This document shows, piece after piece, positions 1,638-57,921 of a DNA stretch of 64,000 nt. The position numbers and the translations under genes were made by a program. The stretch spans positions 13,987,422 to 14,051,421 of the forward strand of contig OZ036001.1 in assembly GCA_964035015.1 (NCBI GenBank). Direction: 5' to 3'. The stretch is from Corallium rubrum. Taxonomy: Eukaryota; Cnidaria; Anthozoa; Scleralcyonacea; Coralliidae. Position 1 is the stretch's first letter, and each line of letters opens with the position of its first letter. Below the pieces are notes generated by a model. The model made no database searches and was not told where the DNA came from. It worked only from the letters and a program-made list of their open reading frames with translations.

Positions 1638-25295
<23,658 letters not shown>

Positions 25296-41265: not shown

Positions 41266-42016
41266 TATGACGTGCCAAGGTCGACAATATTAGTTACCCC
41301 AAATATATTTTAATATAACTCCATAAATATAATACGAAAGCCATAAATATAATGCCAATTACCCAAATATGATACAAACTTCTCAAATATAATACCAATT
41401 ACCCAAATATAATCTATGACGTGCCAAGGTAGACAATATTAGTTACCCCAAATGTATTTAAAACGGACCTCGCAAATATAGTACGAAAGCCATAAATATA
41501 ATACCAATTTCCCAAATATAATACGAACTTCCCAAATATAATACGAACTTCCCAAATATAATACCAATTACCCAAATATAATACGAACTCCCCAAATATA
41601 ATACGAACTTCCCAAATATAGTACGAATTTCACAAATATAATATGAATTTCTCAAATATAATACGAACTTCCCAAATATAATACGAACTTCCCAAATATA
41701 GTACGAATTTCACAAATATAATATGAATTTCTCAAATATAATACGAACTTCCCAAATATAATACGAACTTCCCAAATATAGTACGAATTTCACAAATATA
41801 ATACCAATTACCCAAATATAATACGAACTTCCCAAATATAATACCAATTACCCAAATATAATACGAACTTCCCAAATATAATACGAACTTCCCAAATATA
41901 ATACCAATTACCCAAATATAACACGAACTCCCCAAATTAAATATAATACGAACTCCCCAAATTAAATATAATACGAACTTCCCAAATATAATACGAACTT
42001 CCCAAATATAATACCA
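41266..42016. repeat. 20-bp tandem array with leader, short copy
   Basis: Two leader copies (41266 and 41417), TGACGTGCCAAGGT followed by GACAATATTAGTTACCCC, precede units of AATATAATACGAACTTCCCA and variants (AATACCAATTACCC). The second leader continues AAAACGGACCTCGCAAATAT, as at 52859. Unit length is 20 bp throughout. Confidence 0.9.
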
Positions 42017-42331
42017 ATTATGTAAATTGCCAATCTTGACGTCACACGTGCGTAACGGATTACAATACTTTAAAAAACTCATTAATAATTCATGAAAAGC
42101 AAGGAAATCAGTACCAACATATCGGTGGTTTTATACCTGATAAAACTTATCGACGTCTGAAAGAATAGATCATTTTCATCTGACGTCACGGCGGCCATAT
42201 TGGTGTACCAAAACAATGAAATGTCGGCCATATTGGTGTACGGTATGGGAATTAGCTCTTTCTTATTCAAATATTTCGTATTGTTTCACCACCCCAAGGG
42301 GGCCACCGATCACGTGAGTGAAAACGATCTA

Positions 42332-46740: not shown

Positions 46741-47840
46741 AAAAAACAACTTTCCAACTTGGTAATTTTGTTTCTACCAGCTAAAATGATATAAATAAAA
46801 ACCAAGCTTTCGGACTATACGTCCATCCTCAGGGTTAAAATGACTATATGGTAAAACTACATGCATTCATGAAGATTATTAAAGTATTTCGTGGTCTTTT
46901 GTGTTTACATGAGCCGACTGGCCTTCAAAATTCGTGTCAATGGCCTTCCAACTAATGACTATCAGAGAGGCATTATTTCATGTGGTTTGACACCAATCTC
47001 ATTTCAAACAACATATTTAATAAGTTTAAGTTGAGAAGTAAAGTATGCTTATTATGCAAAAAAAAGGAAAAAAGTCTTATAATATGTTTGCGGTCAAGAC
47101 ACATGTCGAAAATCGACGGGGTGACGCGGATTATTTTTTTCTTATTTATTAAGGCAAACCTTATGTGTTCTTCTATAGTGTCGCATTTTAAACTGAGCAT
47201 GTATAGCATCGTCTATGTTTTGATTTATTTATGGAAAATATTTACGTCAAAATATCAACATGCATATAGAGCACTTTGATAATGACCATGCATCACTTCA
47301 AATACTCTTTCATTATGAAAATAAAGATTCTTTTAGTTTGAATTGCAGGCACACAAACGAGACGACGGAAAGGCTTATGAAGATGCACATATTAAAAAGA
47401 ATATTCAAATTAATCGCTATTATGAAAGTGGTTTATGGTAGGCATATTATACGGTTTATGTGATATTCGTGCAGAATTATGCATGCTATACTGCATGTCC
47501 CTTGCAAGCTCAATCTGACTTGACAAGTATATGCAAACATGCACGAATACATCCTGATCGAGCTATCATGCGACCAAATACTTAAAAAGGCTTCGAGTCC
47601 CATGCAGCCAGTATAGGTATTTGAAATCGGACTAAATTAATAAAATTATGATTAAAAACTAATCTTGCATCTTTGCAAGTTTAATCTCACTTTATATAAC
47701 GCCCTCTGCACGCCATGGAAAAAAATTAAAGCTTCGGCCGTTCAACAGAGCGAATAATCAAAGAAGCAATTGTTCTGAGAAGCAGTTTTCCTTCACCAAG
47801 ACAATATTAAACCGCAAACCGCAAAGGGAGCTATAACCGT
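46741..47840 (+). mobile_element. decayed Penelope-like element, family 2
   Basis: Left end: a terminal repeat with a hammerhead on the minus strand (46800-46843). Right part: 47725-47806 matches 57580-57660 of the other decayed Penelope copy (GTTCAACAGAGC, AATAAT, CCTTCACCAAG against CCTCCACCAAG). In between I find no intact RT motif. The inverted 5' hammerhead relative to the coding strand mirrors the intact element at 13-15 kb. Confidence 0.45.
46800..46843 (-). ncRNA. minimal hammerhead ribozyme, second sequence type
   Basis: Minus strand: AACC, core CTGAGGA, stem II GGAC/GTCC with GTATA loop, GAAA, palindromic AGCT, U, then GGTT closing a 4-bp stem I. It has the same minimal, loop-less stem III as the 13-kb copy but different stem I and II sequence. 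Confidence 0.6.
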
Positions 47841-52432: not shown

Positions 52433-54650
52433 CTATTTAGTGGCAACAAATAAGAAAATTCGACGAAAAACATTTTTGCGATATGAGAATGTCCACATTC
52501 TTTCTTGTTACATGTTTTTTTTAAGCCATAAGAACGAGAAAGGTACGATATTTCAAATTCTCGAAGTGATTATTTTCTCTATTCGTTCATATATGCTGTA
52601 GAGCTGATGGAGGAAATTAATAATTGAAAAAAAAGTGGGGGTCACCAAGTGTCTGTGAGCTAAACTAGGTTGAAGCTTTAACATGGAGTATTTCCCTATC
52701 ATTTCATCTATATACGAAACCACGTAACAAATTTTTACTGATTTTTTTTAAAAGATTAAGCTAATTTATTTGGCCTCCTTGGTGACATTTTTATGTGTTT
52801 CGTCACTAACACTTGGATACATCTTGAATCACGACAGATTGCAATGTGTAATAAGTATGACGTGCCAAGGTGGACAATATTAGTTACCCCAAATATATTT
52901 AAAACGGACCTCGCAAATATAGTACGAAAGCCATAAATATAATACCAATCACCCAATAATAATACGAACTTCCCAAATATAATACGAACTTCCCAAATAT
53001 AATACCAATTACCCAAATAGAATACGAACTCCCCAAATATAATACGAACTTCCCAAATATAATACGAACTCCCCAAATATAATACCAATTACCCAAATAT
53101 AATACAAACTTCTCAAATATAATACGAACTTCTCAAATATAATACAAACTTCTCAAATATAACACGAACTTCTCAAATATAATACGAACTTCTCAAATAT
53201 AATATGAACTTCTCAAATATAATATGAACTTCTCAAATATAATACGAACTTCCCAAATATAATACGAACTTCTCAAATATAATACGAACTTCCCAAATAT
53301 AATACGAACTTCCCAAATATAATACGAACTTCTCAAATATAATAAGAATTACCCAAATATAATATGAACTTCTCAAATATAATACGAACTTCCCAAATAT
53401 AATATGAATTTCTCAAACATAATACGAACTTCCCAAATATAATACGAACTTCTCAAATATAATACCAATTACCCAAATATAATACGAACTCCCCAAATAT
53501 AATACGAACTTCCCAAATATAATACGAACTCCCCAAATATAATACCAATTACCCAAATATAATACAAACTTCTCAAATATAATACGAACTTCTCAAATAT
53601 AATACGAACTTCTCAAATATAACACGAACTTCTCAAATATAATACGAACTTCTCAAATATAATATGAACTTCTCAAATATAATATGAACTTCTCAAATAT
53701 AATACGAACTTCCCAAATATAATACGAACTTCTCAAATATAATACGAACTTCCCAAATATAATACGAACTTCCCAAATATAATACGAACGTCTCAAATAT
53801 AATAAGAATTACCCAAATATAATATGAACTTCTCAAATATAATACGAACTTCCCAAATATAATATGAATTTCTCAAACATAATACGAACTTCCCAAATAT
53901 AATACGAACTTCTCAAATATAATACCAATTACCCAAATATAATACGAACTCCCCAAATATAATACGAACTTCCCAAATATAATACGAACTCCCCAAATAT
54001 AATACCAATTACCCAAATATAATACAAACTTCTAATATAATACGAACTTCTCAAATATAATACGAACTTCTCAAATATAATACGAACTTCTCAAATATAA
54101 TACGAACTTCTCAAATATAATATGAACTTCTCAAATATAATATGAACTTCTCAAATATAATACGAACTTCTCAAATATAATACGAACTTCCCAAATATAA
54201 TACGAACTTCCCAAATATAATACGAACTTCTCAAATATAATAAGAATTACCCAAATATAATATGAACTTCTCAAATATAATACAAACTTCCCAAATATAA
54301 TATGAATTTCTCAAACATAATACGAACTTCCCAAATATAATACGAACTTCTCAAATATAATACGAATTACCCAAATATAATATGAACTTCTCAAATATAA
54401 TATGAACTTCTCAAATATAATACCAATTACCCAAATATAATATGAACTTCCCAAATATAATACGAACTTCTCAAATATAATACCAATTACCCAAATATAA
54501 CATGAACTTCCCAAATATAATACGAACTTCTCAAATATAATACGAATTACCCAAATATAATACGAACTTCCCAAATATAATACGAACTTCTCAAATATAA
54601 TACGAGTTACCCAAATATAATATGAACTTCCCAAATATAATACGAACTTG

Positions 54651-54780
54651 TCATTGTTGTCATTGCTCTGATGAAGGTCTGAGTCAACAGGCCGAAAGCT
54701 TAGCAAAGAAATATTTTACGTGGTGTTTCCACAAAACTTATTTATATTACTTTATCGCCATGAAAACGTTCAAAGAATTA
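54651..54780 (+). mobile_element. Penelope terminal-repeat segment in array, copy 1
   Basis: 130 bp, TCATTGTTGTCATTGCTCTG to CGTTCAAAGAATTA. It matches the 3' terminal repeat of the 13-15 kb element nearly base for base, and is flanked on both sides by 20-bp units. Confidence 0.9.
54661..54709 (+). ncRNA. minimal hammerhead ribozyme, array copy 1
   Basis: Core CTGATGA and GAAA intact. Stem II GGTCT/AGGCC keeps pairing through a G-U pair. Palindromic AGCT stem III. Stem I CATTGCT/AGCAAAG. Confidence 0.7.
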
Positions 54781-55314
54781 ATAATACGAACTTCTCAAAT
54801 ATAATACCAATTACCCAAATATAATATGAACTTCTCAAATATAATATGAACTTCTCAAATATAATACGAACTTCCCAAATATAATACCAATTACCCAAAT
54901 ATAATATGAACTTCTCAAATATAATACCAATTACCCAAATATAATATGAACTTCCCATATATAATACGAACTTCCCAAATATAATACCAATTACCCAAAT
55001 ATAATATGAACTTCCCAAATATAATACGAACTTCTCAAATATAATACGAACTTCTCAAATATAATACGAACTTCCCAAATATAATATGAATTTCTCAAAT
55101 ATAATACGAACTTCCCAAATATAATACGAACTTCTCAAATATAATACGAATTACCCAAATACAATATGAACTTCTCAAATATAATATGAACTTCTCAAAT
55201 ATAATACCAATTACCCAAATATAATATGAACTTCCCAAATATAATACGAACTTCTCAAATATAATACGAATTACCCAAATATAATATGAACTTCCCAAAT
55301 ATAATACGAACTTG

Positions 55315-55444
55315 TCATTGTTGTCATTGCTCTGATGAAGGCCTGAGTCAACAGGCCGAAAGCTTAGCAAAGAAATATTTTACGTGGTGTTTCCACAAAA
55401 CTTATTTATATTACTTTATCGCCATGAAAACGTTCAAAGAATTA
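55315..55444 (+). mobile_element. Penelope terminal-repeat segment in array, copy 2
   Basis: Same 130 bp, 664 bp after copy 1. The flanking array variants on each side repeat in the same order. Confidence 0.9.
55325..55373 (+). ncRNA. minimal hammerhead ribozyme, array copy 2
   Basis: Core CTGATGA...GAAA intact, stem II GGCCT/AGGCC perfect. Confidence 0.7.
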
Positions 55445-56118
55445 ATAATACGAACTTCTCAAATATAATACCAATTACCCAAATATAATATGAACTTCTC
55501 AAATATAATATGAACTTCTCAAATATAATACGAACTTCCCAAATATAACACCAATTACCCAAATATAATATGAACTTCTCAAATATAATATGAACTTTTC
55601 AAATATAATATGAACTTTTCAAATATAATACCAATTACCCAAATATAATATGAACTTCCCAAATATAATACGAACTTCCCAAATATAATACCAATTACCC
55701 AAATATAATATGAACTTCCCAAATATAATACGAACTTCTCAAATATAATACGAACTTCCCAAATATAATATGAATTTCTCAAATATAATACGAACTTCCC
55801 AAATATAGTACGAACTTCTCAAATATAATACGAATTACCCAAATATAATATGAACTTCTCAAATATAATATGAACTTCTCAAATATAATACCAATTACCC
55901 AAATATAATATGAACTTCCCAAATATAATACGAACTTCTCAAATATAATACCAATTACCCAAATATAACATGAACTTCCCAAATATAATACGAACTTCTC
56001 AAATATAATACGAATTACCCAAATATAATACGAACTTCCCAAATATAATACGAACTTCTCAAATATAATACGAATTACCCAAATATAATATGAACTTCCC
56101 AAATATAATACGAACTTG

Positions 56119-56248
56119 TCATTGTTGTCAATGCTCTGATGAAGGCCTGAGTCAACAGGCCGAAAGCTTAGCAAAGAAATATTTTACGTGGTGTTTCCAC
56201 AAAACTTATTTATATTACTTTATCGCCATGAAAACGTTCAAAGAATTA
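56119..56248 (+). mobile_element. Penelope terminal-repeat segment in array, copy 3
   Basis: Same 130 bp, 804 bp after copy 2; the spacing difference of 140 bp equals seven 20-bp units. Confidence 0.9.
56129..56177 (+). ncRNA. minimal hammerhead ribozyme, array copy 3
   Basis: Core and stem II intact. Stem I starts CAATGCT rather than CATTGCT, costing one base pair. Confidence 0.65.
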
Positions 56249-56985
56249 ATAATACGAACTTCTCAAATATAATACCAATTACCCAAATATAATATGGACT
56301 TCTCAAATATAATATGAACTTCTCAAATATAATACGAACTTCCCAAATATAATACCAATTACCCAAATATAATATGAACTTCTCAAATATAATATGAACT
56401 TCTCAAATATAATACCAATTACCCAAATATAATATGAACTTCCCAAATATAATACGAACTTCCCAAATATAATACCAATTACCCAAATATAATACGAACT
56501 TCCCAAATATAATACGAACTTCCCAAATATAATACCAATTACCCAAATATAATACGAACTTCCCAAATATAATACGAACTTCCCAAATATAATACGAACT
56601 TCCCAAATATAATACGAACTTCCCAAATATAATACCAATTACCCAAATATAATACGAACTTCCCAAATATAATACGAATTTCCCAAATATAATACGAACT
56701 TCCCAAATATAATACGAATTTCCCAAATATAATACGAACTTCCCAAATATAATACGAACTTCCCAAATATAATACGAACTTCACAAATATAATACGAACT
56801 TCCCAAATATAATACCAATTACCCAAATATAATACGAACTTCCCAAATATAATACCAATTACCCAAATATAATACGAATTTCCCAAATATAATACGAACT
56901 TTGAAAACATAATACGAACTTCCTAAATATAATACGAATTTCCCAAATATAATACGAACTTTGAAAATATAATACGAACTTATAG

Positions 56986-57921
56986 ACATTTACGAGGAAA
57001 TTTACAGACGATATGTCGATGACACATTAATTCTTATCAAGCCGTCTGACATTCCTTTCGTGTTAGCTAAATTCAACTCTTTTGACAAAAGTCTTGAATT
57101 CACTGTTGATTCTTGCAATGACGGTCTTGTACACTTTTTAGATATCAAAATTTCGTCAGATGGTATTGACGTTTACCGTAAAAATACTCACACCGGTCAA
57201 TATACTCATTTCTCTAGTTTTGAACCGTTTTCTGGCAAAACTGCATGGATAAAATCGCTTTTTCATAGAGCCTCTAAAATATGTAGCACTAATAAACTTT
57301 TTGAAAGTCAGATTTCTAATTTAAAGTAATTTATGTCCTGGAACGGTTTCCCTAGCAACATAAGAAACTCAACTGATTAATAAATTAAAGAATAAACTCT
57401 CCTTCCTTCTGCTATAAATAACACATCTGATGAGTTAGATAATCTGCCAAAAATCTGGTTTCGTATTCCATACCTCGGTAAACGAGGTGAAAATCTAGTT
57501 AAAGGATGCATAAATAAAGTCCGACGTTGCCTAATAGACCTCTTGCAGATGACGTCAAAACGATGCATCTGGAGGACAACTTCAAAGTTCCGACGTTCAA
57601 CAGAGCAAATAATGAATGAAAATTCTATAGTTTATAAGCATTTGTCCTCCACCAAGGGAATAAGTGCAAGTGGTCTATAGAGAACCTGTTAATTTTATTG
57701 TGATTTACAACACCAAAAAGGTTTCTTATTTTCTGTCAAACAAAGACAACATTCCGGATAATTTACGAAGTAACATTGTTTACCAAATTTCTTGTTCAGA
57801 CTGCGGTCAAAGATACATAACATTGGTAAAACCGAGCGTTGTCTCATTTTGGAAGTATAGTGTTGGTGTTTTTCGAAATAAAAACACCTTGCATGTCCGC
57901 GAATCGTGGGTTTTTGAATAA
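56986..57921 (+). pseudogene. decayed Penelope-like element: RT end and GIY-YIG
   Basis: Starts exactly where the 20-bp array stops. It reads IYEEIYRRYVDDTLILI (catalytic YVDD at 57012-57023), FLDIKISSDGIDVYRK, and FMSWNGFPSN after an in-frame TAA (57328-57330). Further on, RIPYLGKRGENLVKG, then the endonuclease part NIVYQISCSDCGQRYI, where a two-base insertion breaks the frame before IGKTER. The N-terminal two-thirds of the RT is missing. A different Penelope subfamily from the 13-15 kb element. Confidence 0.85.

Follow-up and report, generated by a model that had tools for sequence, protein, structure and literature searches.

Does a tandem array that carries several hammerhead ribozymes owe its structure to them, or can such ribozymes be passengers of an ordinary satellite? 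The question is raised by a locus of the anthozoan Corallium rubrum (GenBank assembly GCA_964035015.1, contig OZ036001.1, positions 13,987,422 to 14,051,421, forward strand), a stretch of 64,000 nucleotides hereafter called the window, in which the hammerhead-bearing end of a Penelope-like element (PLE) stands three times within a 20-bp minisatellite. An earlier sequence-only reading had proposed that a transcript of this array could be cut into unit-length RNAs, as in retrozymes. Our analysis points to a neat but ordinary genomic accident as the most likely origin: a known element end and a plain satellite, joined once and then multiplied. To a single insertion of a solo pseudo-long terminal repeat (pLTR) into the satellite, followed by ordinary amplification at the DNA level, we assign a probability of roughly 0.86.

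Three copies of one insert

The minisatellite (AAATATAATACGAACTTCCC type, about 200 copies according to Tandem Repeats Finder, TRF) occupies positions 52935–56981 on the + strand. Read unit by unit, it shows three interruptions, at 54633, 55297 and 56101, each of 164 bp from one unit start to the next and each composed of a partial unit, an insert of 133 bp and an 11-bp repeat of the preceding bases. These 11 bp, AATACGAACTT, are found on both sides of the insert as a direct flanking repeat. The inserts lie on the + strand at 54650–54782, 55314–55446 and 56118–56250; the segment formerly described as 130 bp long and starting at 54651 is therefore real, but its length is 133 bp and its start 54650. 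Only two positions in total vary among the three copies, and their coordinates confirm the spacing of 664 and 804 bp noted before.

The two spacers (531 and 671 bp) are identical at 521 of 531 aligned positions and are separated by four gaps of 40, 20, 60 and 20 bp, the placement of which depends on the alignment. The 140-bp difference, earlier equated with exactly seven 20-bp units, thus holds as a sum over several events and not as a single step. These differences also bear on the possibility that the array is misassembled and that fewer copies exist. Satellites are hard to assemble, but the copies can be told apart by two base changes, by ten differences in the spacers and by four gaps of whole units, and the array lies within a 16.9-Mb contig, which makes such an error improbable.

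The claim that the order of unit variants around the inserts repeats was borne out as well. Upstream of inserts 1 and 3, 20 consecutive units are common, with 19–20/20 identity against a background for unit pairs of 18.0/20 on average and 14.6% perfect pairs. For insert 2, in strict register, high identity is held only over the first 6 upstream units, because some upstream units are missing there. On the downstream side, the first 7 units are common to all three inserts. Upstream, the duplicated context of inserts 1 and 3 thus spans about 400 bp; downstream, 140 bp are duplicated in all three pairs.

Origin of the insert

A BLAST comparison within the window identified the insert as the last 128 bp of a PLE copy located at 13028–15198 on the − strand, with GTCA added at the 5′ end. 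Over these 128 bp, corresponding to PLE positions 2045–2172, the inserts show 98–99% identity (98.4%, 99.2% and 98.4% for inserts 1, 2 and 3), and matches to the insert occur in the window only at 13, 15, 54, 55 and 56 kb. This confirms that the segments are hammerhead-bearing PLE terminal repeats, here solo 3′ parts of a pLTR with a tail, within a higher-order repeat of the 20-bp satellite.

The window PLE belongs to the same family as the inserts. It is 5′-truncated and holds an open frame of 635 codons, the PLE-coding part of which (13260–15098, −) contains a reverse transcriptase (RT) domain (Pfam RVT_1, E 4.7e-9). A search of the PDB returned only weak RT matches (best E 0.017). The C-terminus is GIY-YIG-like by motif only (GVYRI...YIGETG, recognized by eye), and no Pfam GIY-YIG match was obtained at E values up to 10. 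At its 3′ end, the element carries a pLTR end with an intact hammerhead and the tail (13028–13156, −); at its 5′ end stands an inverted pLTR (15095–15198, +) without tail, with the core change C3 to A and with about 32 terminal bp missing relative to the element's own end. This layout is like that of some Penelopes of Adineta vaga, in which inverted pLTRs are shorter than full ones, palindromes occur at the inverted junctions, and target site duplications measure 8–10 bp (PMC3846280). The element is surrounded by a 10-bp satellite, TAAGTTGAAG (12191–13028 and 15197–15608), and has a 10-bp flanking repeat.

The tail of the insert corresponds to the 23 nt with which the PLE reading frame begins. 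Two full-length copies (L068 and L069) in the genome, which was searched over 474 Mb in 312 contigs, have direct pLTRs 2594 bp apart and an open reading frame (ORF) of 795 codons from Met; it begins with the tail (ATG AAA ACG TTC..., MKTFKEL). The family thus displays an RT ORF, direct pLTRs, an inverted pLTR without tail, a tail at the ORF start and a short target duplication, all hallmarks of PLEs. In the PLE of Anolis, reverse transcription starts within the early ORF, and its authors match two start sites to the tail (PMC11167929). Because the tail here is the ORF start, the 3′ end of the insert most likely marks the start of reverse transcription, and the 5′ end would be a truncation. The possibility that the satellite is itself part of the PLE was considered and rejected, because the flush ends of PLE copies border on the 10-bp satellite (at 13 kb), on the 20-bp satellite and, elsewhere, on varied AT-rich DNA.

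The hammerhead motif

The hammerhead of insert 1 (54663–54706, +) consists of stem I (TTGCT/AGCAA), CTGATGA, an extra A, stem II (GGTCTG/CAGGCC) and GAAAGCTT, which is followed directly by stem I, so that helix III is missing. Stem II reads GGYCTG/CAGGCC across the copies, and in insert 3 one pair of stem I is lost, leaving 4 bp. Cleavage on the + strand is predicted between 54701/54702, 55365/55366 and 56169/56170 in inserts 1, 2 and 3. The core had been called intact; this is correct for the catalytic letters, while stem III is absent and an extra A follows CUGAUGA. The window holds five hammerhead-like folds, whereas 100 dinucleotide shuffles gave a mean of 0.03 and never more than one per shuffle.

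With CUGANGA, stem II, GAAA and stem I but no stem III, the motif is of the minimal type I described for PLEs, with which it has in common the core letters, stems I and II and the missing helix III; it differs by the extra A between CUGAUGA and stem II. An extra A at this place is known from a viroid hammerhead. The inserts do not contain the canonical type I form with helix III that is found in retrozymes, since GAAAGCTT abuts stem I. A search of Rfam at gathering and E-value thresholds gave no match to the insert hammerhead, nor to a canonical-looking type I motif with helix III in another genomic stretch (L065, about position 1105, +; predicted cut after GTA, as in retrozymes). As the latter was also missed, the missing Rfam match is not counted against the former.

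Minimal type I hammerheads of PLEs reportedly cleave as dimers, according to the title of a 2017 study by Luense et al. A review notes that they may do so, with a role that is unknown (PMC7761336). Here, a dimer could form helix III, AGCU being self-complementary; in a nearest-neighbour model, which ignores tertiary contacts, the dimer (−30.0 kcal/mol) shows no gain over the monomers (−16.0 and −15.1 kcal/mol). The hammerhead of the Anolis PLE was not cleaved in vitro without the PLE protein, and no RNA-seq read ends were seen at its cleavage site (PMC11167929).

A second minimal hammerhead family is present at 46790–46840 (−), with stem I AACC/GGTT and stem II GGAC/GTCC. Its fold at 46832 (−), one of the five mentioned above, has the same core, the extra base in the same place and the same GAAAGCTT. 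This family has 43 genome matches including the window; among 20 of the others that were fetched, CTGANGA and GAAA are kept in 15 and, with GAAAGCTT, in 14, and some copies lie in inverted pairs, as judged by coordinates. The stems have changed between the two families and the core has remained constant, which supports a real hammerhead. A further hammerhead-like fold without helix III, ending GAAACGTC, was noted near the end of another 20-bp array (L054, minus strand, offset 2668).

The satellite and its junction with the insert

A dispersed element whose head is constant (TATGACGTGCCAAGG...) contains the 20-bp arrays; in front of the array considered here, the head occupies 52856–52934 (+). 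The head is also found in a second array of the same element at 41266–42019 (+), which has two heads and no insert, and at other places of the genome, the search of which returned 145 matches from 22 candidates, mostly satellite units. Within the array, positions 53080–54500 (+) hold about three copies of a higher-order repeat of 23 units (460 bp) without hammerhead, recognized from the unit string and from self-identity (99.7% at lag 460, 98% at lag 438).

A search for further arrays holding the insert, suggested by the sequence-only reading, found none in the 14 other stretches of 20-bp satellite that were fetched, in one of which (L051) the unit pattern did not detect three or more units in a row. 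The satellite/insert junction, searched over the genome with up to two mismatches, occurs exactly at three places, all in this array, and at one other place with two mismatches; at this sensitivity, the composite of satellite and insert exists once. Outside the arrays, weak matches to the insert (77–78%) lie in a left flank apparently common to three of the stretches (L046, L047 and L054), together with short insert-like pieces in L046 (E 0.30) and L048 (E 0.025 and 0.086).

The element family across the genome

The family to which the insert belongs appears young and abundant. At least 74 matches were obtained with the PLE protein, many at 97–99% identity (72 scored of 6390 candidates), and a 34-letter hammerhead pattern, allowing up to two mismatches, was found at 2,868 places (1430 and 1438 on the two strands) against zero for the reversed pattern. 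Orientation was counted on the first 100 places listed, which are mismatch-free and stem from contig C1. In this set, neighbours within 3 kb were arranged head-to-head (−/+) 21 times and +/− three times, and two same-strand pairs were found; direct tandem pairs of hammerheads thus occur elsewhere in the genome, but are rare among the places listed.

The surroundings of the element end were studied at 37 other loci; being the top-scoring matches to the insert (scores were obtained for 40 of 248 candidates), they are not a random sample. An outer −/+ pair is present in 33 of the 37, and a flanking repeat of 7–12 bp in 19 of these 33, compared with 1/33 controls. Among 78 BLAST pieces from these loci, 33 end at q201–203, as the insert does, and 27 at q166–170 (the form without tail). 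The 5′ break of the insert, at q74, recurs in six of the 78 (L014, L015, L029, L030, L034 and L036), three of which have one common flank and so count once. CTGANGA and GAAAGCTT are kept in 36 of the 47 pieces that span the hammerhead (no-tail 16/18, tail 16/25, others 4/4).

In 13 of the 33 outer pairs (L014, L019, L021, L022, L024, L033, L037 and L045 among them), the span is only 149–263 bp. These are pLTR pieces placed head-to-head, usually one tailed and one tailless, with a target duplication of at least 7 bp in 8 of the 13, and they resemble a foldback form or one like a miniature inverted-repeat transposable element (MITE).

The loci also bear on the idea that three PLE ends were inserted into the satellite independently. 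PLEs have been reported to favour simple AT-rich targets (PMC3846280); AT content is 70% in the 60 bp around the 33 insertions and 63% over the 37 loci as a whole, and the two insertions of this family found in the window are both within satellites. Satellites are nevertheless not the usual target, because a tandem repeat (TRF score of at least 50) lies within 100 bp outside the outer end at only 5 of the 37 loci, on which ground a general preference of the family for satellites was also rejected. Of these five, L027 has an array with 81 copies of a 14-bp unit and L025 one with 4 copies of a 127-bp unit; L034 has a TA run, and the remaining two rows are minor. The array of L027 (270–1397) lies 84 bp from a nested cluster of PLE pLTRs. 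The identical 5′ break, the extra GTCA, the unit phase and the neighbouring units agree in all three inserts, which is strong evidence against three separate events and makes them exceedingly improbable.

A search of viral contigs, made with the hammerhead, with the satellite and with the PLE protein, revealed no relative.

A probable course: one insertion followed by satellite growth

The order of events and the amplification mechanism, which we infer, would be as follows. A PLE would have made one severely 5′-truncated insertion, leaving 133 bp made up of a solo pLTR with its minimal hammerhead and of the ORF-start tail, and the target would have been the 20-bp minisatellite inside another, dispersed element. 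Ordinary DNA-level amplification of the satellite by unequal exchange or replication slippage would then have raised a block of satellite together with its insert to three copies, and the spacings of 664 and 804 bp would have come about as individual units were gained or lost. The hammerheads would be passengers, with any role belonging to the life cycle of the PLE, although hammerhead pairs could cut each other as dimers if the array were transcribed on the + strand.

Two observations speak for growth at the DNA level. The unit order is common across the insert, so that the duplicated block does not begin at the predicted cut but crosses it in both directions; moreover, the 460-bp repeat was amplified alike without any hammerhead, and unequal exchange or slippage is the simplest explanation for both blocks. 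RNA-level copying of cut circles, though conceivable, would explain nothing beyond this. If the array were retrozyme-like, read-through transcripts would be cut into RNAs of 664 and 804 nt, circularized and maybe reverse transcribed, thereby making the tandem structure. Consistent with such a process, all three hammerheads lie on the same strand, and their catalytic letters as well as stems I and II are intact; the reported ability of tandem minimal PLE hammerheads perhaps to self-cleave as dimers (PMC7761336) and the weakly structured satellite RNA between them (predicted mean unpaired probability 0.68, versus 0.52–0.53 for the inserts) likewise agree with it. The absence of stem III and of an energy gain in the dimer, two unequal unit lengths with a junction at a single locus (three inserts in about 200 units), and the Anolis hammerhead, which needed protein and left no RNA-seq ends (PMC11167929), argue against it along with the two observations above. 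The proposed retrozyme likeness and unit-length RNAs are thus quite improbable. Should unit-length RNA be produced from the array after all, the locus would reveal how new ribozyme satellites arise.

It is also conceivable that the pLTR–satellite–pLTR–satellite–pLTR block is a nascent non-autonomous PLE, in the + strand transcripts of which dimeric hammerheads, formed across the direct pLTRs, would release satellite RNAs of 664 and 804 nt with a PLE tail, to be re-inserted by the PLE protein of this young-looking family; sequences captured between pLTRs in Adineta (PMC3846280) offer a comparison, and satellite DNA would then be spread by the PLE protein. Against this, the junction was not found at a second locus; moreover, the template used by the Anolis protein had to include the first 172 nt of the ORF (PMC11167929), and the insert holds 23 of them. 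We consider this highly improbable.

Several facts weigh against a single insertion followed by satellite growth. A solo copy without inverted partner is uncommon, given the outer pairs at 33 of 37 loci, and 14 of these 33 pairs have no flanking repeat of at least 7 bp. The flanking repeat of the insert sits in a tandem repeat, where 31 or 51 bp would look the same, and the four bases GTCA at the 5′ junction are without explanation. The inserts are slightly more alike (1–2 differences per 133 bp) than the spacers (10 per 531 bp); chance can explain this, but some conservation could too. Finally, the number of inserts is that given by the assembled contig, in which misassembly is conceivable.

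Taken as one insertion and subsequent array growth, the locus offers a clear case in which a ribozyme-bearing transposon end joins a satellite and the ribozyme is not needed. It also cautions that a hammerhead in tandem DNA is not automatically a retrozyme.

Comparison with known systems

A literature search covering titles and abstract openings, with subscription papers mostly outside it, revealed no description of a PLE end in a satellite or in a higher-order repeat. Amphibians, schistosomes and cave crickets possess hammerhead-bearing repeats in which the hammerhead is part of the monomer itself; the 20-bp satellite, by contrast, is interrupted by it at three places. These repeats are named together in PMC7229834, and have in common with the present array a hammerhead within tandem DNA. 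Metazoan non-LTR (non-long terminal repeat) retrozymes are similar in that type I hammerheads of one orientation recur along an AT-rich tandem array (PMC7229834). However, they are characterized by canonical hammerheads, short tandem units of 150–450 bp, many loci and circular RNAs (PMC7229834), whereas the units here measure 664 and 804 bp and the exact junction is at one locus.

The Penelopes of Adineta vaga and Poseidon of Anolis are PLEs with an endonuclease (EN) domain and pLTRs. In Poseidon, the hammerhead likewise lies near the ORF start, but the predicted cut is 58 nt upstream of the start codon here and 26 bp downstream of it in the Anolis element (PMC11167929). Unlike in the PLEs of Adineta vaga and Anolis (PMC3846280, PMC11167929), one solo copy has here been multiplied inside a satellite. 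In Terminons, telomeric repeats stand beside a hammerhead at a chromosome end (PMC12477314); these features are not found here, where an AT-rich 20-bp repeat lies at 14.04 Mb of the 16.9-Mb contig.

Other features of the window

A fragment of a different PLE (56982–57900, +), with the RT motif YVDD and 37% identity over 129 positions to the first one, meets the array at AATACGAACTT, a sequence at which further arrays tend to stop as well. A GC-richer tandem repeat of 64 bp, with 16 copies at 90%, occupies positions 16803–17829.
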